A DNA stretch of 42,644 nucleotides from a virus: IMG/VR virus record IMGVR_UViG_3300044695_005517, positions 1 to 42,644 of that record; one strand, written 5' to 3'. Every line of letters starts with the position of its first letter. Positions within the stretch are counted from its first letter, which is position 1. The notes under the pieces were generated by a model, which saw nothing but the letters and a program-made list of their open reading frames with translations, was not told the DNA's origin and did not search any database. Below are positions 2,363 through 41,700 of the stretch, piece after piece. The translations under genes and the position numbers were made by a program.

Positions 2363-5300
2363 TTAAATAGGTCCTCCGTCAGTTATTGTCCAGTTATTAG
2401 GTCCTGTAGTTAACACACCTCTAGCCGTTGCCGCAGCACTTGGTGCTATTGAATATTGTGAATTACCGGCACTAAATATCACATTTGGTTGTACAGAAGG
2501 TAATGTTGCCCAACCAACTAAAAGTGCATTATAATTTGTTGTTGTTAATGTAACATTACTAAACATATTTGCCATACTTGTTACATTTGATATATCCCAA
2601 GAACCAAGGTTTTGTTCAAACTGTATTGCTTGATTAAACATACTTGACATATTTGTAACATTTGAGACATCCCAAGAACTAATGTTTTGATTAAATAATT
2701 GAGCGTTATAGAACATACCTTGCATATTTGTAACAGAAGATGTATCCCAAGAACCAATTGGTTGATTAAAGTTAATACAACTAACAAATAATTGACCCAT
2801 ATTAGTAACAGATGATGTATTCCAATTATCAATTAATGGATTTCCACCATTATTAAAGTTTTGACATGCGGCGAACATAGCACTAATATCAGTTGCACTT
2901 GACATATCCCAATTTGATAGATTACTATCAAATAAAACATCTTTTGTAAACATATTATTAAAATCTGTAACAGATGTTGTAACCCAAAGATTTGAATTAT
3001 TAATTGTTGTTAGGTCTGAACAAGAACCAAATGTATTTCTTAACGTTAATTGACCGGTTAAGTCTGGTACGTCAACAACAGTATTTAAAGTTAAATTACC
3101 ACAACCATTGAAGTGGCCACTGTAAGTATTGCCAAGTTTTAATTGACCCCATTTTTCAACAGTTAATATATTTCTACTATATGCAGAATCAAAACTAAAC
3201 GACCAACCATCAATAGTACCAAATATTTCAACGGTATATACACCAGGTGTTGCATATGTATGTAATTTTTGTGGACTATTCCAAGAATTAATTGTATTAA
3301 ATGTTCCATCACCCCAATAAACAGTAAAATTATAATTCCCAGTATCAACTAATGGTAATCTAATTTTAAACCCACTAAATGTTGTCCAAGTTGTAATAAA
3401 TGATGGAATTACAGATGGTGTTGGAGTAACAGTAGGGGTAACCGTAGGAGTAACCGTAGGTGTAACTGTCATCGTAGGTGTAACCGTAGGTGTAACTGTC
3501 ATCGTAGGTGTAATTGTAGGCGTAACGGTTGGTGTTGGTGTTGGTGGTAAACCACAATAAACACAAGAAATATCATAATCAATTAAAAGATTTATTTTAA
3601 CCTCAGCATCTGATAATGTATTAAAGTTTGTTGGTTTACAATTTTTATTAGTATCAGTACAATTATTTATAATTTTTACTGTATTTTTTTCTAAATCAAA
3701 TTCTACACCGCCAACATCTGGATATTGTAAAAGTAAATCCTCCAAAACTAATACCCATTCTTCGTCGGTTGGGTAGTCAGTTAGTCCAAAAGATGTATAA
3801 AATGTGGTTTCTTTAATAACACCATCAACAGAAACTTGTGCTGTAAATGTTGCACTATTTAATTCACAATTTGTATCATCAAATGTTAAATCATAATAAC
3901 CCTCATTTAACATTTGTAACATACCTCGTCTACCAATAATACCGGTATTTTGGAAGTTTTGACTACAAATTGTAAAAGATTGTGAACCATAAATAAGTTC
4001 AGTTCCAGTTAGTGTTACTGTTTTTGTTAAAACACATCCTTGATTATCAATTACTGTAAGTGTATATGTCCCAGCTGTTAAACCAGTTACATTTGGTGTT
4101 GTTTGTCCATTTACATTTGAACTCCAATTATATGTGAACGGTGGATTTCCACTTGATATTAGTGTTTGAATTTCGCCATCATTACCATTAAATGTTGGTA
4201 TTGTATATAAATCATAGTAAAGGTTCAATGAACTTGCTATTGTAAATCCAACTGATTGTGTACAACCATTAATGTCGAAAACGGTTGCAATATAATTTCC
4301 TGGTGATAAATTAATAAATGTTGGTGTATTTTGTATTGGTTGACCGGTTATTTGGTATGAATATGGTGTTGTACCACCGGTTGATGCCAATATTGTGACG
4401 CTTCCATTATTTAAACCACAACTTGTATCAGTTGTAACGGCTGTTATTGTAAATAAATCTGTATTTGATATTGTAATTGTTGTAGTATAAACACAAGGTG
4501 AACCATTAGATATTTCAAGTGTATAAGTATCAGATGGTAGTCCATTAAAAACGGCAGTTGATAAGTTTGTAAAAGTCTGAACAAGATTACCTAAAGAATC
4601 TAATAAATTAAAAACAAACGAACCGCTTGGTGATCCAGCATTTACAGAAGCAGTTATTGTTCCATTATTATTTGAACAAGTAGAATTTGTTGATGTTATT
4701 GAGGCAATTGTAAATGCATTTGGGTTTAATAAAAGTATGGAACTAATGTCAGTACAAAGCCCAGCATCTTGGACAAAGACTGTTAATAATCCATGGCCTA
4801 AATTTGTAAATGTATATGATGGTGTAAATGTTACTAATGAGTCACCATTTGACCCTGAAAAGAAGTATGGTCCAGTACCACCGGCCACATTGACAATTAC
4901 TTGACCATCATTATTAAAACAAGTCGGTTGAGTAGGTATTATAGATGTGATTGTTATACCTGGAATTGTATTAATTGTTGTCCCAAGTGATGTTGTACAA
5001 CCATTACTATCAGTAACAGTAACAGTATAAGCATTACTTGTTAATCCGGTTATAAAGTCTGTTGTTTCACCATTTGACCATAAATAAGTATATGGTGGAG
5101 TTCCAGTAATACCGGTAATATAAATTTTACCATTATTTACAACACCATTACAACTATTATTATCAATAACGTAAAACCCAAAATTTAAAGGTGTTGATGA
5201 ATATATTATACAACTTTCACTCCTACCAGTACAACCACCACCATCGTCACCAATGACATAATATGTATCAGCAGATAAACTTAATGGGAATGTAAATGTA

Positions 5301-5722
5301 TTTGTAGAAGTTGTCGCACTTTCAATAAAATTATCATTAATATCGTAAAGAAATGCAGTACCTTGACCATAAAATGTGGTAAATGTAACATCAAGAGTTC
5401 CATTATCTAAACCACATGTTGTTCCTGTTGTATCAATTGACACACAAGTACCTGATGAGATATTAATATCAATGTAGTTTATTGATGGTCCAGGAACCAA
5501 ACAAAAATCTTCAACGGCTAGTGTATAATTACCAGCTGGTAAATTATCAACAAAATAATTAAGTGTTGCCGCTGATGTTGGGAACAAACCACTTGTTGTA
5601 ACTTCATAAACTGTATATGGTGGTGCCGTACTCCCGGTAAATTCAAGATATATCGCACCAAGTGAACTATTAGTACAGTCACCAGTTATTGATAAAGTAT
5701 ATTGTATTGTTCCACAACTCAT
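2363..5722 (-). CDS. Modular tail adhesin: SprB-like repeats, Thr-Pro stalk, BspA/DUF285 repeats
   Basis: A 1119-residue protein. Residues about 1 to 575 are a series of roughly 75 to 95-residue modules with the SprB pattern, seen as 'C..NNG.I', 'GTPPYTYLWSNG' and 'G.YT.TV.D..GC'. A distinct globular segment follows (about 575 to 720). A low-complexity Thr/Pro/Val stalk (PTPTPTVTPTITPTMT and on) occupies about 724 to 771. The C-terminal part (about 800 to 1115) carries repeated WDTSSVTNM..MF and WDVSNVTNM..MF units typical of the BspA/DUF285 leucine-rich-like family. These are modules of Bacteroidota adhesins, here in a phage tail context. The start overlaps the stop of the preceding wedge gene by 4 bp (ATGA). 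No signal peptide is seen. Receptor binding is inferred from architecture and from its place at the end of the baseplate cluster. Confidence 0.85.
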   Translation of the reverse strand: MSCGTIQYTLSITGDCTNSSLGAIYLEFTGSTAPPYTVYEVTTSGLFPTSAATLNYFVDNLPAGNYTLAVEDFCLVPGPSINYIDINISSGTCVSIDTTGTTCGLDNGTLDVTFTTFYGQGTAFLYDINDNFIESATTSTNTFTFPLSLSADTYYVIGDDGGGCTGRSESCIIYSSTPLNFGFYVIDNNSCNGVVNNGKIYITGITGTPPYTYLWSNGETTDFITGLTSNAYTVTVTDSNGCTTSLGTTINTIPGITITSIIPTQPTCFNNDGQVIVNVAGGTGPYFFSGSNGDSLVTFTPSYTFTNLGHGLLTVFVQDAGLCTDISSILLLNPNAFTIASITSTNSTCSNNNGTITASVNAGSPSGSFVFNLLDSLGNLVQTFTNLSTAVFNGLPSDTYTLEISNGSPCVYTTTITISNTDLFTITAVTTDTSCGLNNGSVTILASTGGTTPYSYQITGQPIQNTPTFINLSPGNYIATVFDINGCTQSVGFTIASSLNLYYDLYTIPTFNGNDGEIQTLISSGNPPFTYNWSSNVNGQTTPNVTGLTAGTYTLTVIDNQGCVLTKTVTLTGTELIYGSQSFTICSQNFQNTGIIGRRGMLQMLNEGYYDLTFDDTNCELNSATFTAQVSVDGVIKETTFYTSFGLTDYPTDEEWVLVLEDLLLQYPDVGGVEFDLEKNTVKIINNCTDTNKNCKPTNFNTLSDAEVKINLLIDYDISCVYCGLPPTPTPTVTPTITPTMTVTPTVTPTMTVTPTVTPTVTPTVTPTPSVIPSFITTWTTFSGFKIRLPLVDTGNYNFTVYWGDGTFNTINSWNSPQKLHTYATPGVYTVEIFGTIDGWSFSFDSAYSRNILTVEKWGQLKLGNTYSGHFNGCGNLTLNTVVDVPDLTGQLTLRNTFGSCSDLTTINNSNLWVTTSVTDFNNMFTKDVLFDSNLSNWDMSSATDISAMFAACQNFNNGGNPLIDNWNTSSVTNMGQLFVSCINFNQPIGSWDTSSVTNMQGMFYNAQLFNQNISSWDVSNVTNMSSMFNQAIQFEQNLGSWDISNVTSMANMFSNVTLTTTNYNALLVGWATLPSVQPNVIFSAGNSQYSIAPSAAATARGVLTTGPNNWTITDGGPI
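3451..3510. repeat. Two perfect 30-bp tandem copies inside the Thr-Pro stalk
   Basis: Positions 3451-3480 and 3481-3510 are identical 30-bp units lying head to tail. They encode ten residues of the TPTMTVTPTV type within a longer degenerate repeat tract at about 3409-3549. The unit is a multiple of three, so gain or loss of a copy would change stalk length without breaking the frame. Confidence 0.9.
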
Positions 5723-18922: not shown

Positions 18923-20761
18923 TCAAGAAAAATTGATTGTCTTGAAATTCAATACTCTAACATTAATATCCTTGTTTGGGAACCTAATTTGATAGATTTG
19001 TGTTGGTTCAGCAAAGATTGTATCGGCCACAAGTTCAATTTGTCTTGTTGCTGAATCCGAATATCTTTGTGATGTTTGTGATGATGAATATTGTCCACCA
19101 ACATTATTAAAGAATTGTATATCTGATATTGATATTACACCATTTTCATTTTGGATTAATCTTCTTATTTCAGATACATATATATTTTTACCAAGTTGTT
19201 GGGTTAATGGGTTGAAATAATTTGAAATTATATCTATGATTTTTCCAACGATTGATCCTTGGTTTTGACTTGCATCCAGTACAACATCAACATTAACTGA
19301 AAGGTCAATAACATTTGCTGTTTCAACCGAAATGTAATCATTTATCATTCTGTAATTTGATAGATAATTTGCAACGTTGTTTTTAAGTGTATTTGAATTA
19401 GTTTCAGTTAAATTACCGCTTGTATCATAAGACAACATTTTAATTTTAATTTTGTTGTTTTCTTCTGTTATTGATGCTTTTGCTGGTGCTCCAAATTGTG
19501 ATGGCATCATTCTTAATACTGATTCATAATCATTTACAGTTACAGCTCTATTTTGCGCTGCAAAGTTAAATGAGACATATTGTCTTACTTCTTCTGTTGT
19601 TGGTGCGTCAGCTCCACCGATTGCCGCTGTTACATTGTTTACTTTTAATGAATTAACAACAGTTGTGTTTACAGATTCAGATGGTCCATTAACAAAAAAT
19701 GAAACAGTACCAATTTGATTTATTGTGTTAATACCCAAGTTTGTACTTTGACCACCACCAATTCTATACTGAACAAATAATGTTGAGTTTGATTTAAGGG
19801 CAGCCCCAAGAGCTAAATTGTTTGAGTATTTACTTAAATTCATATCATAACCACCTCTGGCAAACTCTCTTAATTGTTCTTCGGCTGAAACATTTCCACC
19901 ACCAAATGTCATTTTTAAATAACCCTCCGGTGTATATTCAGATATAAACTTTGTGTTTGTTGTAATATATCTACCGACTTTAATTCCTGGTTGGTCAGAT
20001 ACTTTTGTTGGGTCCTCAATAAAAACTCTATCTTCAGCCAGAGCTTTTACTTCATACCATCTATTATCAAGACCTAAAAATTCTTGTGGTTGTGGAACAT
20101 TTGTATATTGTGTTCCATCTTTTAAAAGAACACTAGTAATACCCAACACATTTTTTTCTGGTAAAAATAATTCAAAAAATGGTTTAACATCATTTGGTGT
20201 TATTGCTCTTTTGAATACTTTTGTAACACCATTAACAACAACTTCTCTTTTTGTAATTGTATAATTTAATAATTTACCGTTTGAATCAAAATTTGGAATT
20301 TTTAACCTATTTGGTGCTCCTTCAGAATTTATTGGTGATGAAAAATCAATATCATAAACAGTTTCAAATGGTTGTCCGGCACCACTTACTTGTGATCCTC
20401 GTCTTAAAACACCACAATATCTTAAATCTTCTCTGTCACCAAAAGCCGGTACAATAATTGAAAAGTCAACAAGTGCGACTGATGGTCTCTGTCCGGGTAT
20501 TTTTAAACCGTAAGTCCTTGCAATATTATAGATTGATGATTTTTGTTGTGCATACTGTAATACGGTCTCTTGAATACTTCTATCAATATGAAATTGTAGG
20601 TTGTCTGTTACGGCAGCATTTAAATCCAACATAACAGAAAATACACCAGCATCATTAAAGTTCTGAACTAAATCTGGATAATATGTTCTTGTAAAGTTTA
20701 TTAACTCGGTTCTAATTCCTTGGAAATCCCTAGTTGTATATGATATTTTCTTTTCTGCCAT
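18923..20761 (-). CDS. 6: Baseplate wedge protein, T4 gp6 / baseplate J-like
   Basis: A 612-residue protein, similar in length to T4 gp6 (660). The N-terminus (ISYTTRDFQGIRTELINFTR..YPD) followed by DAGVFSVMLDLNAAVTDNLQFHID is the typical start of gp6/baseplate-J proteins in T4-like phages. The middle has the family's 'YTPEGYLKMTFGGG' and 'YRIGGGQSTNLGINTI' beta strands, then VRQYVSFNFAAQNRAVTVNDYE, the helical turn that precedes the core fold, and a C-terminal half with INVRV-type strands. In the virion, gp6 forms the iris-like ring of baseplate wedges. It directly follows the gp25-like gene (5-bp gap), the same adjacency as in many contractile systems. The ATG at 20761 follows A-rich sequence, and a TATAAATA box sits at 20772-20779 inside the end of the gp25-like gene. 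Confidence 0.85.
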   Translation of the reverse strand: MAEKKISYTTRDFQGIRTELINFTRTYYPDLVQNFNDAGVFSVMLDLNAAVTDNLQFHIDRSIQETVLQYAQQKSSIYNIARTYGLKIPGQRPSVALVDFSIIVPAFGDREDLRYCGVLRRGSQVSGAGQPFETVYDIDFSSPINSEGAPNRLKIPNFDSNGKLLNYTITKREVVVNGVTKVFKRAITPNDVKPFFELFLPEKNVLGITSVLLKDGTQYTNVPQPQEFLGLDNRWYEVKALAEDRVFIEDPTKVSDQPGIKVGRYITTNTKFISEYTPEGYLKMTFGGGNVSAEEQLREFARGGYDMNLSKYSNNLALGAALKSNSTLFVQYRIGGGQSTNLGINTINQIGTVSFFVNGPSESVNTTVVNSLKVNNVTAAIGGADAPTTEEVRQYVSFNFAAQNRAVTVNDYESVLRMMPSQFGAPAKASITEENNKIKIKMLSYDTSGNLTETNSNTLKNNVANYLSNYRMINDYISVETANVIDLSVNVDVVLDASQNQGSIVGKIIDIISNYFNPLTQQLGKNIYVSEIRRLIQNENGVISISDIQFFNNVGGQYSSSQTSQRYSDSATRQIELVADTIFAEPTQIYQIRFPNKDINVRVLNFKTINFS

Positions 20762-20766
20762 TTTAT

Positions 20767-21225
20767 TTAAATATTTATAATTACAAAATCACTTGTTTCA
20801 AACACATCATTTGTTGATTTATATTCAATTTTTATTCTTGCCGTATGTTCTTTTTGTGATATTCCAGGAACTTTATATGCTAACTCACCATTACTATCAA
20901 CATATGTTCCTTTATCCTCGTCCTCTAATGATGCATCTGTAATACTTATATTTGTGATTAACAGATTTGGGAGATACTTTTCAACAGAATCTCTAATTTC
21001 AGATTCAATATCAGAAAATGTTGGTCCATCTAGTGGTTCAAATATATATTCATATAATCTTGTCCCAAAATCTGGTAAAAAGTATCTTGTGCCTTTTCTT
21101 GTTAATAATAAGTGAATTAAATTACTTCTTATTTCTTCAGATTTTGTATCTGAAGCGTCCAAATATTTTCCAACAAAAGAATCTCTAAAGGGAAAATTTA
21201 TACCATAAGTAATACCATTTGCCAT
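20767..21225 (-). CDS. 25: Baseplate wedge protein, gp25-like (GPW/gp25 family)
   Basis: A 152-residue protein (T4 gp25 has 132). The core matches the gp25-like fold: YGINFPFRDSFVGKYLDASD, then EIRSNLIHLLLTRKGTRYFLPDFGTRLYEYIFEP, then DIESEIRDSVEKYLPNLLI. The segment 'LL.T..GTR...PDFG..L...IFEP' is the family hallmark. gp25 anchors the first sheath ring to the wedge. I chose ATG 21225 (MANGITYG). A TTG two codons upstream (21231) is in frame, but it lies within the A/T-rich leader and ATG is much more likely. A TATTTAT box lies at 21231-21237. The gene is followed closely by the gp6-like gene. Confidence 0.88.
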   Translation of the reverse strand: MANGITYGINFPFRDSFVGKYLDASDTKSEEIRSNLIHLLLTRKGTRYFLPDFGTRLYEYIFEPLDGPTFSDIESEIRDSVEKYLPNLLITNISITDASLEDEDKGTYVDSNGELAYKVPGISQKEHTARIKIEYKSTNDVFETSDFVIINI

Positions 21226-21293
21226 ATTCAATAAATATAGTGTTGGTAAATTTTATCTAAATAAAAAACCCATTTTATTAGATAGGATTATAA

Positions 21294-22064
21294 TTAGAAA
21301 CAATTAATTTTTTTTATTTTATTTGCGACTTCAGTAACGTATCCATGTGATGTTATATCAATTTTGTCCCATCTTTTAGTGTTATAATTTGGTAAATAAT
21401 TTTTAACCAATTTATTTGTCACTTTAACATTATTAATCGTTTTACCAGCTTCACTACAAGGTTTTTTTATTTTTGGATTTGATGTTTCACAATACTTTGT
21501 TATTTTATCAAATCCTAGGTTATAGGATGCCACGGCAATGTCCAAAACAGCATTGATTGAATTTGATGGTTTCATATTAACAGATTTTGAGTTTTCACTA
21601 TAACCATTTTTTTTTGCAATATCTATTGCTTTTTTTATGTAAGTATAAACAGCAATTAAAGCCCCTTCTATTGTCAAAACATTTTCTTTAATTTTTAATG
21701 ATTTTATTGTTTCTTTTGTCATTTGAGCCGGACCTATCGAACTATCAGAAAAAATGTGACTTAACTCTTTGAATGGTTCTAAAATGGAATATCGTAATCC
21801 AGAACCAAAAGAACTTTCTCTACCAACGACACCTAAAGCAATTTTTAGTAAAAACTTATCATAACCTTTTTTTATTAGGCTATGTATTGCGGGTATAAAG
21901 GCTGGTGGTATACAGGGGTATTTTTTCTTTAAACTTTCAATTTTATCAGAGAATGGATTTACTTTTTGTTTTGGTTTAAATCTATCCAAACCAACTTGTT
22001 CTTTAATAATATCTTTAATTAAAATGTTAAGTTCGGACTCTGTTAGTCTTACTATGTTTTTCAT
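21294..22064 (-). CDS. Lytic transglycosylase (SLT/lysozyme-like) with a capsid-targeting-like leader
   Basis: A 256-residue protein from ATG 22064. Residues 78 to 90 (GVVGRESSFGSG) contain the catalytic Glu (E83) of the 'ES.fG' motif, 110 to 115 (IGPAQM) match 'GA.G.MQ', and 178 to 184 (VASYNLG) match 'A.AYNaG'. This is the motif order of SLT-type transglycosylases, which cut the glycan strand of peptidoglycan. Residues 1 to 22 (KNIVRLTESELNILIKDIIKE) are an amphipathic, separate leader ending in I-K-E before Q23, which fits the L/I-x-E site of T4-type prohead proteases. A CIPPAFIPAIHSLIKKGYDKF helix lies before the catalytic core. No signal peptide or holin is adjacent, so a virion-borne enzyme is more likely than a lysis endolysin, although the latter stays possible. 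A terminator lies just upstream and a TATTTATA box at 22079-22085. Confidence 0.75.
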   Translation of the reverse strand: MKNIVRLTESELNILIKDIIKEQVGLDRFKPKQKVNPFSDKIESLKKKYPCIPPAFIPAIHSLIKKGYDKFLLKIALGVVGRESSFGSGLRYSILEPFKELSHIFSDSSIGPAQMTKETIKSLKIKENVLTIEGALIAVYTYIKKAIDIAKKNGYSENSKSVNMKPSNSINAVLDIAVASYNLGFDKITKYCETSNPKIKKPCSEAGKTINNVKVTNKLVKNYLPNYNTKRWDKIDITSHGYVTEVANKIKKINCF

Positions 22065-22090: not shown

Positions 22091-22121
22091 ATAAAAAAAA
22101 ATCCCTACTTTCGTAAGGATT
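22091..22121 (-). terminator. Rho-independent terminator after the DUF5522-like gene
   Basis: On the minus strand a 9-bp stem (22121-22113 paired with 22108-22100, one T-G wobble) closes a GAAA tetraloop (22112-22109) and is followed by a run of nine T. The stop codon TAG of the DUF5522-like gene (22105-22107) lies inside the stem, so the terminator begins within the coding end. Confidence 0.85.
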
Positions 22122-22332
22122 CTTTTAAGTTTGTACTACCCTTCTCATATGAGGGCTCATAAGGGCAATGTTTGCATTTTGAGCCACAGCATTTGCCACG
22201 TTTTATATGAAAAGATTCGGTCATTACAATATTTCCAAATTTATCTTTATAGAAATCTGGTTCTGGAGTTTTTTTTGTTATCTCCTGAACGTATAATTGT
22301 TGGACCCAATCTTTTGATGCATTTACATTCAT
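22105..22332 (-). CDS. Small Cys-rich DUF5522-like protein
   Basis: A 75-residue protein from ATG 22332, ending with TAG. The segment DKFGNIVMTESFHIKRGKCC followed by GSKCKHCPYEP (residues about 30 to 60) matches my memory of DUF5522, with the pattern 'h.RG.CCG..C.HCPY'. The four cysteines (CC, C, C) plus His probably bind zinc or an iron-sulfur cluster. The biochemical function of this family is not known to me. The N-terminus (SKDWVQQLYVQEITKK) looks helical. It lies between the class II RNR and the transglycosylase with hairpin terminators on both sides, so it may form a single-gene unit. A redox or metal role alongside RNR is only a guess from position. Confidence 0.7.
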   Translation of the reverse strand: MNVNASKDWVQQLYVQEITKKTPEPDFYKDKFGNIVMTESFHIKRGKCCGSKCKHCPYEPSYEKGSTNLKESLRK

Positions 22333-30909: not shown

Positions 30910-31572
30910 TTATTTGTTAAAATTTTCATCATCACTCCAATCATTAAAAGTGTCTTCAATTTCATTTGGTGAATAATCTTCAACATCATCAGTTGTTAAG
31001 ACATATTCATTTTTGCCACTTTTTTCCATTTCTTCTTGTTTATCAGCAAAGAAATCTGATAATTTTTGTTTAAATGGTCCTGAATCTAAACTTCTCAATT
31101 CTAATTTTTCTTGAGCGGTTTTTGGTCTAAACTTATCAAATTTTTGTTCCAAAGAATTTAATGATGAAACAATATTATCCATTTCTTTCAGTTTGTCTTC
31201 CAAACCTTTAATCTGATTGAAAAGATTTTCAAAGTACTCTTCTTGTTTTGTTTCAATATTTTTTTGAGAATTAACTAAATCTGTAATATCTAATTCTTCA
31301 GTTTCATCACCCTCTTTACCAACTTCTTCAACATCTGGGTCAGTCGCTGGATCTACCGGAGCCGGACCACCTGCCGCAGCATCTGGAGCCGGGCCACCTG
31401 CTGGTGGAGCACCACCCGGAGGAGGAGGAACATCACCACCCGGAGGAGGAGGAACATCACCACCCGGAGGAGGAACATCACCTGGTGGTGGGGGAACTTC
31501 TTGTTCATTTAAATATTTATTGATACTTTTGTATCTATAAATTTCTTCTAGTATTTTTTTTTCAACACTCAT
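30910..31572 (-). CDS. Pro/Gly-rich, coiled-coil virion or core protein with possible targeting leader
   Basis: A 220-residue protein. Residues 1 to 23 are a helical, charged leader (SVEKKILEEIYRYKSINKYLNE) ending in L-N-E before Q24, a possible prohead-protease site. Residues 26 to 75 are a low-complexity stretch of repeated PPPPGGDV and GGAPPA/GGPAP units. An acidic linker (DPDVEEVGKEGDETEELD) follows. Residues about 95 to 150 form a heptad-rich coiled coil (YFENLFNQIKGLEDKLKEMDNI). The end is very acidic (EIEDTFNDWSDDEN). I recognise no family. The layout (helical leader, flexible spacer, coiled coil, acidic tail) resembles internal or scaffold-type proteins. The gene begins 4 bp after the 74-residue protein gene and is closed by a terminator. 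Confidence 0.65.
   Translation of the reverse strand: MSVEKKILEEIYRYKSINKYLNEQEVPPPPGDVPPPGGDVPPPPGGDVPPPPGGAPPAGGPAPDAAAGGPAPVDPATDPDVEEVGKEGDETEELDITDLVNSQKNIETKQEEYFENLFNQIKGLEDKLKEMDNIVSSLNSLEQKFDKFRPKTAQEKLELRSLDSGPFKQKLSDFFADKQEEMEKSGKNEYVLTTDDVEDYSPNEIEDTFNDWSDDENFNK
31411..31479. repeat. 24-bp tandem repeats coding the PPPPGGDV stretch
   Basis: Two identical 24-bp units (31411-31434 and 31435-31458) are followed by a 21-bp shortened copy (31459-31479). They are much richer in G and C than the surrounding DNA and encode Pro/Gly repeats. In-frame copy number changes would alter only the spacer length. Confidence 0.85.
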
Positions 31573-34800: not shown

Positions 34801-37800
34801 TTTTGGTGCATTTGGTATAACAAATATTGTATCTTGTGGTACCAATTGAGAAATACTCACTGTATATACTCCAGTACTTCCTGTTGTTCCAGAAATTTGA
34901 TTTACAATTGTTGTACCACTAATTATTGAGTTTCCGAATAATACTTGTCCAGGGGCCAAAATATTATCAGAAACACTTACAACTTCCATAGTTGTACCAG
35001 AAATTTTACAAACACCATTTAGTTGTGTTCCGCCTGTAAAAATTTTTAACCCTTGGTAAAAGACATTAAAATCATCTAAAACTTTTGGGTAAAATCCAAG
35101 ATTTATATTTGTGGTGTAACTATTATTAACAATAGGTGAATTATTTTGTAAAATAATTTCATAAGGATTTGTATATGCAGTCACCGAATAGGCTCTAGTT
35201 GTTGCCGAATTTGCCGGGTCATAATTTGATTTATAATCAAAATTTTTCCAAACATCATCTAATATATCAACATTTGTTTTTTTCCAAACTTTATATCTAT
35301 GCCAGATTGATCCATATTTTAATATCCAAGGATATGGTAATTTATGGATTGCTCCGAATTTTTTTAATGTTGCAAATATGTAACTTAAATCTGTTGATGC
35401 GTTAAATGTTTTGTATTTTTCTTTTAGTGTTGATAGTGGTAAACTATTTAAAAATAGATATGCTGCTAATTTATATGATGATAAATCATTAGTATTAAAT
35501 CTATAATTAAAAACACCCCTTTGTATTGCGTTAACAAAATAAGGTGTATTCAACATAGATGTTGTTTGATTGTAAACTAAAGACCCACTATAGTTTATAT
35601 AATTTAAATTACCTTCGGTTACAAATTGTTCTTCTATTTTTCTGTTCGTATAGAATGTTTTTAAATTTGACAAATCCAAAGTTTGATTTATTATATCACT
35701 TTTAAAGTTAAAATTTGTAAATGGTCTTTTAATGTCATTTGTGTCTGTTGTTAAAAAATTAGAAATTGATTTATGTTCAATATTAAACAATAAAACATCA
35801 CTAGTTTTGTACGCGTCTGTTGCGTTTGATAATGCTTTACCGTCAGCTAAATATTTTTTATCCCAATCAAGATTTGTTAATGGATATAAATCACCAAATT
35901 CAAAATTATTTGATGCTGAAACGTTTGAAAGGTAGTCATTTAATTTACCTTCATTTGTAACTGTAACATCCGGTTTTGATGCATCACTAACTAAAATTGA
36001 TTGGTTTATTAATGATGTTGGGTTTTCAATTTCATTTTTTATATATGACGTTGTAAAATCACCTCTTATAAATTTTTGCCAACTTTCCCCTTCTCCTTGA
36101 TTTGATATGTGTCTAAGGAAAGCTAGAAAATTACTTGCGTTAATGTTAAAGTTTTTTAATTTCTTAGATAAAAACGGATTATCATCTCCTAATGCTTTTA
36201 ATATATTTTCTTTCTCAGCTTCAGATTCAACATTATATACACCATAATCATATCCGGATTTTCTATTTAATCTACTATATAATGAGTTCATAATTATTCT
36301 TTCATATATTTCGTAGAAAAATCTTAGTTCTTCAACATTTTGATAAACTTCATTTGTGACAGGAAAATCAAGTGCGTTTAAACTAGCTCTATTTGGTCTT
36401 AATGCTATATTACCTTGAGGGTCTGGTGCTGGTTCTGGTGATTCCCTTTCCGTATACCCTTTAATAAATTGTTCAACAAATTCAACTTCAGGCCAAATTT
36501 CTGGAATAAATGTTTTAAATTGTGCGGCAATTGCAACATCGCCAGGATATTTAATTTCAAATTTTTCTTCTTTATTTTCACCTAAAGATTCAACAATTAA
36601 TTGTGGCCAAGGATAAACCGGTGTATCATTTTCAACAACACTTTTATAATCAACGCTTGGTGCTGTTGAGCTTTTATTAAAAATTGCTGCTTTTCTATAT
36701 TTATTTTCTCTTACTTCCCAAGCTTCTGTATGAACATCATCAAGTAATCTCAAGAATGCTTCAGCTTGTGCAAAAAACACAGCCATCACATTTCTTATCG
36801 TTGGTATAAATCCAAGTGAATTATTTTTTTCTGAAAATTTTTGTTGTATTGCATCTGTAATTAGTTCCTCAACAGTTTTTTTTGTTTCAGAAACTTTTTT
36901 TCCAATATTATTAATTTGATCCACAAATGACCCAACACCTTCAAACCAAAAACCAATAACACCTTCAGCAGTCAATGGTGTAAGTTCTTTTACAATTTTT
37001 TCTTTAAATTCATCAATCACAGTTTGACCACTTATTTTTTTTCCTGGGTTTCTTGCAATATATGTTTCTTTTAAATCTATGTTATTATCAAGTGAAGTTT
37101 TTATATCATTTGTTTTTATAAATGTTTCGTATTTAATTGTATTTGGTATAAATGATGTTTTTTCTTTACCATCAACCACATATTTTCCATTCGTACCAAA
37201 AACTAAATTTTCGGAAAGTATCTTATTATATAAACTTATAAGTTTATCTTTTAGTTCATTAATTGCAGATACTTTATTTTCTAATGTAATTTCTTTTTTA
37301 AAAATATATATTTTTGTTTTTTCTTCATTATTAACAATAAAAGGTTCATCTGTTTCTAAATATTTTTTTGCCCAACTTGACGTTGAAAAAAAAACATCTC
37401 TTTGATAATCATTGAGTGTTGTTGTGTAATTACTTATGTCAGTTAAAACACCTAAATTTTCTTTTTCAAATTTTTCTAAAATTTCTTTTATGAATGTATC
37501 TAATCTAGTTTTTAATTGTGTTATTGTTATTTCTGGAAAATCATCAGGAATTAAACCTTTTGACTTATAGTTCGCATATAATTCTTTCATTTTTGCATAA
37601 CCCTTACTTGTAATTTTTGGGGTAACAGCTGTTGTTGCATTTTGAGTTCCAGTTGTTGAGGTATTAGCAATATTTATGGTTGATGCATACATATGTGGTA
37701 CTGCTAACATACCACCCCAATTTATATGGGACATAATTGTATACTTATAACCATAAAATTTTAACTTAATTTTAAAATTGTGTGTTGATGGATCAAAATT

Positions 37801-38445
37801 TGATGTAAAACTTTGAAGCATAATTGGGAATCTAACAGCTTTTCCATAGTAACCTTTTAATGTTAAATAAAAGATTGGATACGGTAATTGAAAAAACGAT
37901 GCGTAAGGTGAGTTGTCTCCCCCTTCAAATAAGGCTCTACCTTTGACATCTTCAAGGTCAATATCAATAACTGGTTGAAATGAAGTATTGATTGTTACTT
38001 TGATTGATGTTATACCTAATAAACCATTGTCAACGGCACCCGGATTTCCATTTGAATATAAACTTTGAGTTATATAATAATCATTTGGTTTATTTGGGTT
38101 TGCTACGGCATTTAGTTTTGGTTGATTAACTCCTTCACCCTTTAACGTATCTTTTCCGGTTATTTCATCTGTATATGAATTTTGGAGAAATGTTTTACCA
38201 CCTGGATTTAAAAAATTAATTTTAGCAACTGAAACAGTTCTAATTGAATCATTCAATGCTGTTCCCAAAGCTAATTTAGTTCTTGGTAATACATTACATT
38301 CTAAGTTGGCATAATATACCAAGTTTTCTTGTTTTACAAATCTTTCTTGTGGCTTACCCTCACTATCAATTACTTTATTTGGGTCAATAATAGAAATATT
38401 ATCATAATCAAGTTCTACTAAAATATTTTCACCATTATCTACCAT
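31849..38445 (-). CDS. Giant baseplate hub-like protein with possible C-terminal wall hydrolase domain
   Basis: A 2198-residue protein; ATG 38445 overlaps the gp53-like gene by 11 bp. The N-terminal 250 residues (LYSNGNPGAVDNGLLGITSIKV, FDPSTHNFKIKLKFYGYKY) look like a tail-tube or hub beta fold. Residues about 1138 to 1212 carry an insert (QLNGVCKISGTTMEV, then GTTGSTGVYTVSISQ) of a kind common in tail proteins. Near 1910, MFSGPYLITSVSHSITENG resembles the hub motif seen in gpD/gp27-type proteins ('G.Y.it.v.H'). The last 190 residues contain MYVDSGTKTGFSAYENNY, then YGAAGNKYF and FNSFEDYLNFF, which recall glucosaminidase/lysozyme-like domains; this part is tentative. In T4 the hub also carries lysozyme (gp5), so the architecture is sensible. 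The functional call rests mostly on context. Confidence 0.65.
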   Translation of the reverse strand: MVDNGENILVELDYDNISIIDPNKVIDSEGKPQERFVKQENLVYYANLECNVLPRTKLALGTALNDSIRTVSVAKINFLNPGGKTFLQNSYTDEITGKDTLKGEGVNQPKLNAVANPNKPNDYYITQSLYSNGNPGAVDNGLLGITSIKVTINTSFQPVIDIDLEDVKGRALFEGGDNSPYASFFQLPYPIFYLTLKGYYGKAVRFPIMLQSFTSNFDPSTHNFKIKLKFYGYKYTIMSHINWGGMLAVPHMYASTINIANTSTTGTQNATTAVTPKITSKGYAKMKELYANYKSKGLIPDDFPEITITQLKTRLDTFIKEILEKFEKENLGVLTDISNYTTTLNDYQRDVFFSTSSWAKKYLETDEPFIVNNEEKTKIYIFKKEITLENKVSAINELKDKLISLYNKILSENLVFGTNGKYVVDGKEKTSFIPNTIKYETFIKTNDIKTSLDNNIDLKETYIARNPGKKISGQTVIDEFKEKIVKELTPLTAEGVIGFWFEGVGSFVDQINNIGKKVSETKKTVEELITDAIQQKFSEKNNSLGFIPTIRNVMAVFFAQAEAFLRLLDDVHTEAWEVRENKYRKAAIFNKSSTAPSVDYKSVVENDTPVYPWPQLIVESLGENKEEKFEIKYPGDVAIAAQFKTFIPEIWPEVEFVEQFIKGYTERESPEPAPDPQGNIALRPNRASLNALDFPVTNEVYQNVEELRFFYEIYERIIMNSLYSRLNRKSGYDYGVYNVESEAEKENILKALGDDNPFLSKKLKNFNINASNFLAFLRHISNQGEGESWQKFIRGDFTTSYIKNEIENPTSLINQSILVSDASKPDVTVTNEGKLNDYLSNVSASNNFEFGDLYPLTNLDWDKKYLADGKALSNATDAYKTSDVLLFNIEHKSISNFLTTDTNDIKRPFTNFNFKSDIINQTLDLSNLKTFYTNRKIEEQFVTEGNLNYINYSGSLVYNQTTSMLNTPYFVNAIQRGVFNYRFNTNDLSSYKLAAYLFLNSLPLSTLKEKYKTFNASTDLSYIFATLKKFGAIHKLPYPWILKYGSIWHRYKVWKKTNVDILDDVWKNFDYKSNYDPANSATTRAYSVTAYTNPYEIILQNNSPIVNNSYTTNINLGFYPKVLDDFNVFYQGLKIFTGGTQLNGVCKISGTTMEVVSVSDNILAPGQVLFGNSIISGTTIVNQISGTTGSTGVYTVSISQLVPQDTIFVIPNAPKTGISSAEVQNLINSNKLYLLPSDGSKITKSQGFDTNNLNRSLNLKTWSAASLTPTKSNVYLLPSFGSNVNQISSECFKQNGTSKIELFDNPAIYDGSVRSFWVSPHYGYFDHSRLTKTNPEQYLKEIFNDKRIQQNFLIDGDPSKYTKIDELFSVFEKEVLDLFENEFLNFSRSCYDYKSTLESSNTLSQLSSTGQAQEDNQNFQFLMRKLMKVAKPTQTTPDAIITELTNLQKSNFISIMDNFLNYNVILRNGNPTNFDKRLFYTFSNQYIVDPIVYQGYNQGTPGLLPSNGGNITLAQSKAIYPEAWNALETYVGFSEIPELRYSSNGSYITDFFIDVNVKFTEKNVIDFTPIIKIYATEKLKDPTLNGPKFFDLMNQYLIDSKTYIDNVINVMMPAVRAGIKDITIVQTNPGKSTLFGEQTKVELWELFKSINDTWIAGYDLKTKTLFEDVLIFDRASRDVGQKILVDIFQIKELIDKRQYDNNFLDIVNTVLTQNNFVYFNLPSFANFYNVQDAVKTPIPRNEGTLEFANTLFGTFLNLDYRETSPKLLCYYANKTSEHLDMKNNIDYRFRNDAFDLRRTSDNPLIQNLQNKTDWDKSNKVVGFNIDIGRQNQQIFKQFDVSQNPGKPTAESLEVLNQMANIDKNRTSSTQNNSLYNLYKNRSYGCSVDMMGNALIQPMMYFNLRNVPMFSGPYLITSVSHSITENGFDTTFEGTRQPFYALPKIENFIQSLSVKLLKTIQEKIEEKNKQIKFSEGNILNQKSIVLDNAFGGDETLSKEQTCSDKLAQAYKAYTTVDSPKLTSITFADAKKKIFDGITASFPSLSEQSTNEFMIFIFTSMYVDSGTKTGFSAYENNYSTIPLSDTYGAAGNKYFNSKYICVDKGDNINNIPLAAFNSFEDYLNFFISKFAGKLTTLKNADIKKYAEVYVLNWPIEQPRDVYDKLLEEDKKRLEDKFTEGYDLIVSSNPVPGLSLTSAGN

Positions 38446-38761
38446 AATAAAAGAAGTGATTGTCTAATTCGTTTTTATAATCTTGTAAAGATGCTATTAA
38501 TGGGAATGGAACTGTTAAGATAGATCCATCTGGTATGTTTGTCTCAAGACCAGAGAACCTTGGGTTTGCTTGTAAAATTAACCAACCAAATAATGGTGAA
38601 CCATAATATTGTTGTGAAATTTTATCAAGTCTTGATTGACCTACTTTATAGATATAATTCTTATCACTACCTTTATTTGGTAATGTAACATATGGAACAA
38701 CTGTTTGTTGTCCATTTATTAAAAACTCATTATATCTATTATAATATTGTAAACCTGACAT
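38435..38761 (-). CDS. 53: LysM-like baseplate wedge protein (T4 gp53-like)
   Basis: A 108-residue protein (T4 gp53 has 196). The N-terminal strand YYNRYNEFLINGQQTVVPYV precedes a LysM-like fold: YIYKVGQSRLDKISQQYYGS, then LFGWLILQANP and IPDGSILTVPFPL. This pattern ('Y.v..g.rld.ia..yYG.p..wW.i...N.....I..G..L.iP') is found in gp53-like and tail-protein-X proteins, where it clamps wedges together. The gene lies between two giant baseplate genes; its stop overlaps the hub-like start by 11 bp, and its ATG follows the previous stop by 2 bp. Confidence 0.8.
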   Translation of the reverse strand: MSGLQYYNRYNEFLINGQQTVVPYVTLPNKGSDKNYIYKVGQSRLDKISQQYYGSPLFGWLILQANPRFSGLETNIPDGSILTVPFPLIASLQDYKNELDNHFFYYGR

Positions 38762-38763
38762 AA

Positions 38764-41700
38764 TTAATTAAATTTAACTTTTTTATTAAATTTATCATCA
38801 AAATTTTCATTTCCAGTCCTATACACACTTTTCATAATACTTCTTTTTTCCATTTTATCAACAGTTACATCTGTTGTGTAACTCATTTTTGTATCAATAG
38901 CATCAAGTTCAAATTTGTCATAAATTTGATATTCTGGACTTTTTTCATAGTCGTCAAAATTTTTAATTTCAGCGTCAAACTCTTCTTTAAATAAAACTTT
39001 TAAATCACCTAATACTTTTTTAAGTTCATTTTCTAAAATTGTATTTTTCTTAACTAAATCCAAATTAATTAATTCATTAAAAAATGTTTGATATTTTTCG
39101 TCATTAACAAATGTATCAGCATAAACCATATAGAATCTACAATTTTCATCAATAATTAATTTATTTGTAATTGGTACAAATGATGTTTCTTCTTCAAGAT
39201 AATTTTCTTTATTTGATATGTTTTTAGAAATTAGAAGTTCGTCAAATTTAATAAGTGAATTACCAACTTTATTTTGATATTGGTCAAACATCCCGTTGAA
39301 AACGCTGGTTCCGGTTATTTCTGTTAAATCAAAAACTTTTACATCACCGGTCTCTAATTTTTTACCGTCAACACCACTTTTTGTTGTTCCACTAGTACTA
39401 TATAAAACAGCATCAACTTTTTTAAAAGTTTGTATATAGTTTTCTTGTGATTTTGTTATTTCATTAATTGGTTCAACAACAATTTGATTTAATGTATTTA
39501 TTTTAGATTGTGTTAATGATTTTAACTTATCTCTAACTTGTCTAAATGCTGATTTTGGGATATTAGGTACTTTTATTAATTTTGACATTATTGGGTCCAT
39601 ATCATCTTTTATATCTCCAACAACATTATTAACTAATGACTCAACTCTATTTTCAACATCTTCGGGTTTTCCATAAATTTTAACTGGAAATTTATTTGTA
39701 CTATAAAACAATAAATCACCTTCAGAGTATTTTCGTTTAAAACCAACTAATTGTAACATTCCATAATTTGAAGTGTTCTGAATTGTTCTTAATTGATTAT
39801 TAATAGTTTTGAAATGTTTATTTGTATTATCTGAAAGTTCTTTAAATAAAGAAGTGTATTCAATTTCACCACTCTGTATATTACCATTGTCTGCTAAATT
39901 TGTTGTCAACACACTACCAATAGTATCACCACCTTTTACCGGTATTTGATTGTCAATAGTATTACTTTTTACTGGTTGTTGAGCATTTAATATTTTTTCT
40001 ACAACATACTTATCTCTAGCTGATGTGTCTTCAGTTGCTGTTGCTCTTTCATCATATATTTCTGTGTTTGCGTAATAATTAAACGAAAGTGCGTTTTGAA
40101 GTTGGTCAATTGGTTCTTTAAGTCCCATACCACCAATAATGTTAAATGCCATTGTAATATTTGCAATCATTGGTTGTATACCAATTCCTTCTGGGTTTAA
40201 ATCATATAATAATGGTTCATATGAAATATCTAAACTTGTTGGTACAATTTTACTATGATAAAAATCCCCAACTCTTAAAACTAAAATAGGTGGTGCACCA
40301 AAAGAAGTGTTCAAAGCATCATTGTATTTTGGTCTACCATCTGGTCCAATAACTGGTATTGTTTGTCCTGGTCTTGTACATTGATTAAGAAATGTTAATC
40401 TTGAGTTAAGACCTTCCGGTGTCATTGAGTGGAATGCCGGACTAAAATATTTAATTTTTTCTTTAAGAGAATCGTAAATCATAGGATTAGTTTCTTTTAT
40501 TACTTGAAAATAATCACATTCAGAAAAAAGTTGTCTTAATACTTTTTTTGATATACCATCTTTAATTTTTTGTTGTACATCAACTTGTGGAATTGGTTTT
40601 GAGGGTACCGGTTCAACAGTTTGTTGTACTGTTGGTGGTAATGGTTCTTTAATCTCTTGTTCTCCTGGTGGTGTTGGTGGTGTTGGTGGGAAATCAGCTT
40701 TGATTGTTTTTAAAATAACCCTTCTGCATGCCATAGCAGGAAGCGAATTAATTTTTGAGTTTTCTGTTTCAGTATTAGTACTAGCATCTAATGGTATGAT
40801 ATTACAATTTATTTCATCAAATGTTGTTTCACTTTTTGGTATTATTACTTTTTCACCAAGTGGGATTTCTTTAAATGTAATTTTAGATGGTATTTTAGAT
40901 TTGTAAGTTGTACCATCAGAAAATGTTTGTTTCTCAATCCATTTTTTTACAGAATCAATTCTTCTTTCAGATAATCCAAAATTAGATGATTCCGAACCTG
41001 CGGCTGATGATGTACCTTCTAATGTTATATTTACAACACCATTTCTTTTTATTATAACATCTTCCATCGCATCTAAAAACTCTTTTTTTAATTTGTCATA
41101 ATTTCCACTTATAACTTGATTCCAAAAAGTTGGTATTGTGTCTTTTAAAAATGGTTTATCACCAACAAGAACTTTTTGTGGTGCATTTGTTAATGTTTGA
41201 TTATAATTCACATTTTGATAATCAGTAAAATACGTGTCAAAATCTTGTGGTGCGGTTGTTGATCCAACAGGTCCTGGTACTTCATTTGGAAAATAAAAAC
41301 CAAACCCTTCTAATTTTTTAAACGGATCCTCAAATGTATTTGTTGCTTCAGAATTATTATTACCACCTTGATTTGTTTCTTGAATTGGGCTTTCAGGTCC
41401 ACCAATAGTTGTATTTTCAACAGGAACTTCTTTTAAAACTTCACTTAATTCCTCTTCTGTTAATCTTGGATTATTTAATATTTCCTGATAAACAAATAAA
41501 TCTCTTGTTGGTATTTTATTAAATTTTATACCTAATTCGTAAATATCATATTTAACGCAACCAGCAAAAAAAGAATCCATAATTGAATCTAATCTTTCTT
41601 TTGGTGTGTTTACTAATTGTTTTTCAATTATTGTATTAAGTGATGCTGGACTATCAACAATTATTTTCCATTTTAAACTTCCACTTCTTGATGTATTTTT

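Follow-up and report, generated by a model that had tools for sequence, protein, structure and literature searches.

The internal proteins of T-even phages are highly diverse, and the only part of them that is conserved is the capsid-targeting sequence, or CTS (PMC3012670). In T4 the CTS is removed by gp21 and measures 6 residues in Alt and 10-20 residues in the internal proteins, or IPs (PMC5694885). The giant phages phiKZ and SPN3US hold many packaged proteins, and their S80 prohead protease removes N-terminal propeptides from head proteins after a glutamate (PMC5694885, PMC10052503). Here we describe a 22-residue leader encoded in an IMG/VR virus fragment of 42,644 bases (the window; all window coordinates refer to the full fragment). 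Judged from comparative sequence analysis, and with a probability that we put at roughly 80%, this leader is a capsid-targeting propeptide that works like the T4 CTS and is predicted to be cleaved by a gp21-type protease.

The leader begins a minus-strand ORF (22064..21294, stop included; 256 codons plus stop, 256 aa) whose product starts MKNIVRLTESELNILIKDIIKE/QVGLDRFKPK, the slash here and below marking the boundary between leader and core. Residues 1-22 (21999..22064, minus strand), delimited by translation and leader alignment, form what we call a class A leader, and residues 23-256 (21297..21998, minus strand) form a 234-residue cargo core, by motif order a candidate GH23/SLT-like lytic transglycosylase (LT). 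A preliminary description of this DNA had residues 1-22 end in I-K-E ahead of Q23, and translation confirms it: the predicted prohead-protease site, I20-K21-E22/Q23, occupies codons 20-23 (21996..22007, minus strand) and is proposed from the fixed position of [ILVM]xE in related leaders, the site in gp23 and its retention when leaders are swapped.

T4-like baseplate genes follow, namely a gp25-like wedge gene (20767..21231, minus strand; PF04965, 3.5e-11) and a gp6-like wedge gene (Baseplate_J; 18923..20761, minus strand; profile match), and the same strand carries further genes whose T4-like character was judged only by eye. The other border of the variable slot that holds the cargo gene is a conserved 75-aa Cys-rich ORF (22105..22332, minus strand), found in 30 fetched ORFs. 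Using the gp6-like gene as the query for fetching relatives, we obtained at least 595 IMG/VR stretches, among them the 296-kb record G001, whose gp6 is 84% identical to that of the window; the nearest named relatives by gp6 (LR756508, Microcystis phage Mel-JY01 and Flavobacterium phage immuto) are just 25-27% identical. Elsewhere in the window, an 1119-aa protein (2363-5722, minus strand) carries repeats that by eye resemble Bacteroidetes gliding-adhesin (SprB-type) repeats, as well as a stretch of Pro and Thr and, at the C-terminus, a repeat region, and is likely a tail or adhesin protein.

Other copies of the leader were retrieved with a pattern for its first half only, M-K-x-RLTES[DE]L, which left the second half free to vary. 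At least 120 IMG/VR stretches match, and retrieval by this first half alone placed the class A leader on at least 169 phage proteins. In these 169 leaders the free second half reads [IL][VI][KR]R[VI][IVL]xE. Counted from the last L, the E stands at +10 in 82% of them, a second length class has it at +14, and the first [ILVM]xE falls at one or the other of these offsets in 159/169 (~94%), a position that was not selected for. The E carries 3.3 bits of information and the positions behind it 1.0, 0.8, 0.55 and ~0.3, and the consensus of 148 non-redundant leader proteins reads MKKIIRLTESDLxRIVKRVIxE followed only by x, with no consensus outside the leader. The P3 residue is I in 64%, L in 29% and V in 7% (I+L, 93%); P1 is always E in this set, since the regular expression requires it. 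BLAST clustering of the parts behind the leader sorted 225 proteins, collected with a looser leader pattern and including a few false positives, into 180 unrelated cores, of which 151 are singletons. A nicotinamide phosphoribosyltransferase (L071:3386-4465) was one such false positive and was rejected as a cargo. The preliminary description had mentioned RLTESEL-type starts on many unrelated phage proteins and had proposed testing for a conserved I/L-x-E before unrelated domains, and both are borne out by these sets.

By its sequence the leader resembles an amphipathic helix whose start, LTE[SN][DE], is N-cap-like, and leader genes frequently adjoin the gp25-gp6 baseplate genes. Both observations would also fit a docking helix that is never cut and that anchors small accessory proteins to the head, tail, baseplate or a phage protein, the terminal E being a helix-end feature. 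We consider such an anchor unlikely; it would not predict that conservation ends sharply after the E.

Outside the fetched phages the leader is rare. The full pattern occurs at 3 places on 2 contigs only among 84,980 GTDB bacterial and archaeal species genomes, one contig in a Prochlorococcus single-cell assembly (L323/L324, QCKH01000009) and one from a MAG (L325), and both are probably phage contigs within those assemblies. The exact pattern is not in LR756508, Flavobacterium phage immuto or Microcystis phage Mel-JY01; tblastn of short leader queries against named phages gave no match, a result made weak by the low-complexity filter; and the string RLTESDL returned no match in a literature search.

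Near-complete genomes hold 7-20 class A matches each (loose pattern), often in tandem. Tandem arrays of at least five small leader genes with unrelated cores (L074 4359-5932; G003 36500-40325) resemble the hypervariable internal-protein locus of T-even phages. Arrays of this kind, together with the leader swapping described below, suggest spread by recombination, and one could suppose that the 5' end common to these genes is a cassette serving recombination or translation and does nothing for the mature protein. This is the least probable of the explanations that we weighed, and we give it almost no credence: codons differ even among the five leader copies of a single genome (G001) while the amino acids stay conserved, so that selection acts on the peptide; conservation stops at the E; and the avoidance of [IL]xE downstream is a protein-level signal.

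A propeptide of the T4 kind calls for a matching protease, and the preliminary description had suggested looking for a gp21-like enzyme in leader genomes. Among 20 leader-bearing records, gp21 (PF03420) and gp23 (PF07068) score above the cut-off in the same 13, the protease family being gp21-type (Pfam Peptidase_S77), so that the enzyme is present wherever the head region is present (13/13 records). All 13 also have a gp23 with a LINE/A-type site, comparable to the point at which T4 gp23 is cleaved: LINE, LIYE, LISE or LLKE closes the N-terminal region of this protein and is followed by A or S in 13/13 (LINE/S in one). The NHP, SSRG and DFE..D segments of the gp21 homologues are invariant in 13/13, and gp21 is separated from gp23 by a gp22-like scaffold rich in Glu and Asp. 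The other seven records lack gp21, and six of them lack any gp23; we counted these seven, two of which exceed 200 kb, as assumed fragments, which they probably are, and not as counter-examples. Because the 42.6-kb window is itself a fragment without the head region, we infer the protease of its genome from relatives (gp6 84% identical), where alone it was seen. We also entertained the idea that the leader is a copy of the N-terminus of the gp22-like scaffold, and rejected it: the likeness is good by eye, but a matrix scan ranks gp22 no higher than chance, with a weak exception in the gut genome G006 and with several freshwater gp22 proteins lacking the E.

Class A has counterparts. Classes B, C, E and F, which were defined by eye and are less tested than class A, likewise end in the xE of the protease rule: class B, the less rigid, reads MKIIITESQYxxL.xE, class C reads MNL[KQ]E[ST]IR[RK][IV]LxE, class E reads ITEEE[RK].RILGMH...[FY][LI]xE and class F reads LG[ND]VKPL.xE. 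The window holds a further leader type, INKYLNE/Q, on a 220-aa protein (30910-31572, minus strand) whose residues 1-23 (MSVEKKILEEIYRYKSINKYLNE, followed by Q; 31504..31572, minus strand) are a second candidate propeptide; most fetched homologues keep [ILV]xEQ there, followed by a Pro-rich linker that is hypervariable and then by a C-terminal core that is conserved, and this protein is probably another prohead-protease substrate. A ~149-aa class B protein (MKIIITESQYKLIKENVSLKEKL...) is present as four or more paralogues in L231 (G001 ~237.6-257.6 kb), and two long proteins of 1207 and 533 aa, encoded at 185771-191152 in G006, start IIRQVINE/QILLTE/GDSRI, with two stacked [IL]xE sites.

The class A module also occurs inside proteins, once behind a small MPSKSKAQQRFFG... 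domain (L297/G010 280820-281296). Together with other mid-protein modules (G006 105098, 135963, 214307, 228743 and 235738; L316), this looks as if a polyprotein were cut between domains. Leader-like helices ending in [IL]xE stand at or near both termini of two proteins, G003 127606-128337 (close to gp23) and G006 146606-147358, which recall T4 Alt, a protein cut near both ends (PMC5694885). The earlier proposal that the RLTESEL leader is a tag thus keeps its central point, a modular leader, but RLTESEL turns out to be just one of at least five swappable classes and to occur at internal and C-terminal positions as well.

If proteins with the leader encounter a protease cutting after [IL]xE, this triplet should be avoided in the remainder of each protein. 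We counted [IL]xE against its reversed control, Ex[IL], in one core per cluster, and found 190 versus 270 in 175 cores (ratio 0.70), compared with 5148 versus 5011 (ratio 1.03) in the other proteins of five genomes (OR 0.68, p=9e-5; 0/1000 random sets as low). [IL]xE was the strongest of 18 patterns tried in this first set, where patterns were compared after the fact. The cleaner test is a replication set of new leaders retrieved with two further patterns and restricted to clusters unrelated to the first set (n=93); here the counts were 101 versus 145 (ratio 0.70, OR 0.68, p=0.003), and both sets pooled gave p=1.3e-6. Depletion is absent for VxE, AxE, [IL]E, [IL]xxE and [IL]xD, and in the new set LxE, which is part of the rule, is significant and no pattern outside the rule is. 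ORFs adjoining leader genes have a ratio of 0.94, from which the leader cores differ (p=5e-4). Depletion of [IL]xE alone in the cores would not be predicted if the leader stayed in place as an anchoring helix. The avoidance is only statistical, because the LT core keeps ILE-96 and IKE-127 and mature gp23 keeps some [IL]xE. Just behind the leader, a second [IL]xE is slightly raised in the first 5 residues only (12/645 versus ~1%).

Leaders are also exchanged on homologous cores. When cores were searched against all fetched ORFs for homologues whose class-A-free start aligns near the core start, [ILVF]xE lay within -6..+4 of the boundary in 33/35 swapped homologues, which are not all independent and some of which are diverged class A, against a background of 24% in windows elsewhere in the same proteins. 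One core is preceded by RVLEE/QGSDRYMFF, KVLKE/ESRSGRYMFF or QVLRE/DKESSRYMFF, and that of a gene adjoining the terminase by KIINE/APIDY, TKINE/APIDY, TRLNE/APIDY or EFLNE/RAVSY. An uncut helix would not predict that [ILVF]xE is kept at the boundary after an unrelated leader has replaced the original. Leader swapping and the avoidance of [IL]xE point to a protease with the T4 rule, and we are very probably dealing with a capsid-targeting code of the T4 style, new to this phage group, in which several types of leader are interchangeable on a large and rapidly changing set of cargo proteins. With less assurance, we lean toward a broader interpretation, in which huge phages predicted to infect Bacteroidetes would use a general, exchangeable address code of at least five unrelated leaders under one protease rule and would load tens of proteins per genome, peptidoglycan enzymes as well as many rapidly changing ones of unknown kind, into the capsid for delivery to the host.

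Most leader cores have no known domain, and those with recognisable domains are often cell-wall enzymes or binders. Class B cargo includes a 478-aa protein with GDSL lipase, PG_binding and Phage_lysozyme2 domains and, in two genomes, a Phage_lysozyme protein with LysM; class A cargo includes LysM and PG_binding proteins. Directly behind the LT, L002 and L003 encode an L,D-transpeptidase domain of the YkuD/Tlde1 type whose leader is class-A-like but diverged, and then a YkuD_2 protein with a signal-peptide-like start (L002 2938-4488, L003 3354-4902), a pair that is missing from the window and L004. In related phages, different leader cargo occupies the slot immediately upstream of gp25 that the LT fills in the window. 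The cell-wall domains would suit a leader that addresses proteins elsewhere in the infected cell (membrane, replication compartment) or that has a regulatory role, such as that of a prosegment inhibiting lysis enzymes. We find this quite improbable, given that the majority of leader cores carry no cell-wall domain, that the leader contains no long hydrophobic stretch and that proteins in need of export have signal-peptide-like starts, as do the YkuD_2 protein of L002 and the true SLTs of related phages (L528, L531), which lack the leader.

We judge it likely, at a strength just short of that given to the propeptide, that the core (residues 23-256) is a lytic transglycosylase, as its sequence motifs suggest. 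ESSFG (83-87), IGPAQM (110-115), ASYNLG (179-184) and YLPNY (223-227) match the order and spacing of the catalytic E, GxxQ and YNxG...Y motifs of bona fide phage SLTs, and a combined motif, written after seeing both L528 and the window protein, is carried by the window protein and, among 2118 ORFs from five genomes, by a single one, the true SLT L528. The L,D-transpeptidase neighbours in relatives further support this assignment. Searches of the core against Pfam, PHROGs, NCBIfam and PDB gave no lytic-transglycosylase match, a loose PF01464 (SLT) search over whole records gave no candidate, and hhalign against phage SLTs gave nothing significant; an AlphaFold2 model of the LT from 4 close sequences has a mean pLDDT of 34. 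The enzyme identity is thus the weaker half of the preliminary description, supported by motif order and spacing but not by profile searches. As for LT homologues that might lack the leader, all three that were found, one of them from nearly the same virus, keep it.

If residues 1-22 are a capsid-targeting propeptide, the amphipathic N-terminal helix would dock the precursor on the prohead core late in infection, a gp21-type serine protease would cut after I/L-x-E, here IKE-22, and the mature protein, starting at Q23, would be freed inside the head, kept with the DNA and ejected with it. We infer docking, cleavage, packaging and ejection, and likewise the enzyme activity. In this instance the most likely cargo is an enzyme that cuts peptidoglycan, which would be delivered from the head instead of serving as an endolysin and would perhaps open the cell wall for passage of the genome. 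No virion proteome of Bacteroides jumbo phages turned up in the literature searched.

In huge uncultured phages, most genes have no known function. Should the leader be a tag for head cargo, a 22-residue signature flags hundreds of proteins that otherwise defy classification as probably packaged and as injected together with the genome; in T4, the head is where anti-restriction and host-takeover proteins are kept. If the address code holds, head cargo, and hence candidate early-acting anti-host proteins, could be read straight from metagenomic sequence, and the question of which proteins enter the cell together with the DNA is opened to direct test. The tag would also be a ready peptide for loading proteins into the heads of this phage group, and avoidance of the cleavage motif in cargo offers a sequence-only test for protease substrates that is usable in other phages.

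The phages concerned are huge T4-like phages that match published ones predicted to infect Bacteroidetes. One report describes bS21-encoding huge phages of freshwater lakes with predicted Bacteroidetes hosts (PMC9723584), and G002 and G003 share the layout described there: a small ORF, bS21-like by eye, lies on the opposite strand between the portal-side genes and the prohead protease and MCP, and serves as a marker of these published phages. No mention of the leader was found in the passages of that report that were searched (PMC9723584).

Compared with giant phages, the leader shares with the propeptides of phiKZ and SPN3US its N-terminal position before a glutamate, cleavage being predicted here. 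Their propeptides are mostly >100 residues, protein-specific and cut at AxE or SxE, whereas the leader is short and shared, its predicted cut falls at [IL]xE, and the cores show no avoidance of AxE. T7 gp16 is a large internal core (ejection) protein with a transglycosylase domain and without a cleaved tag. It resembles the proposed cargo in its role, that of a peptidoglycan-cutting enzyme inside the head that is ejected so that DNA crosses the wall, and differs in that the candidate enzyme here is small and would carry a removable tag. The closest likeness is to the T4 CTS of IPI-III and Alt, also a short N-terminal propeptide on diverse proteins with an I/L-x-E end, and gp21, gp23 and scaffold partners occur in the same genomes as the leader. 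By eye, only the I-x-E end is common to the two, and the leader is too short for a homology test; our claim is that it works like the CTS, not that it descends from it. The leader measures 22-26 residues against 6 in Alt and 10-20 in the IPs, and, unlike T4, the present phages have several interchangeable leader classes with internal and C-terminal copies, ~180 unrelated cores, and up to ~20 class A matches per genome, more when the other classes are included.
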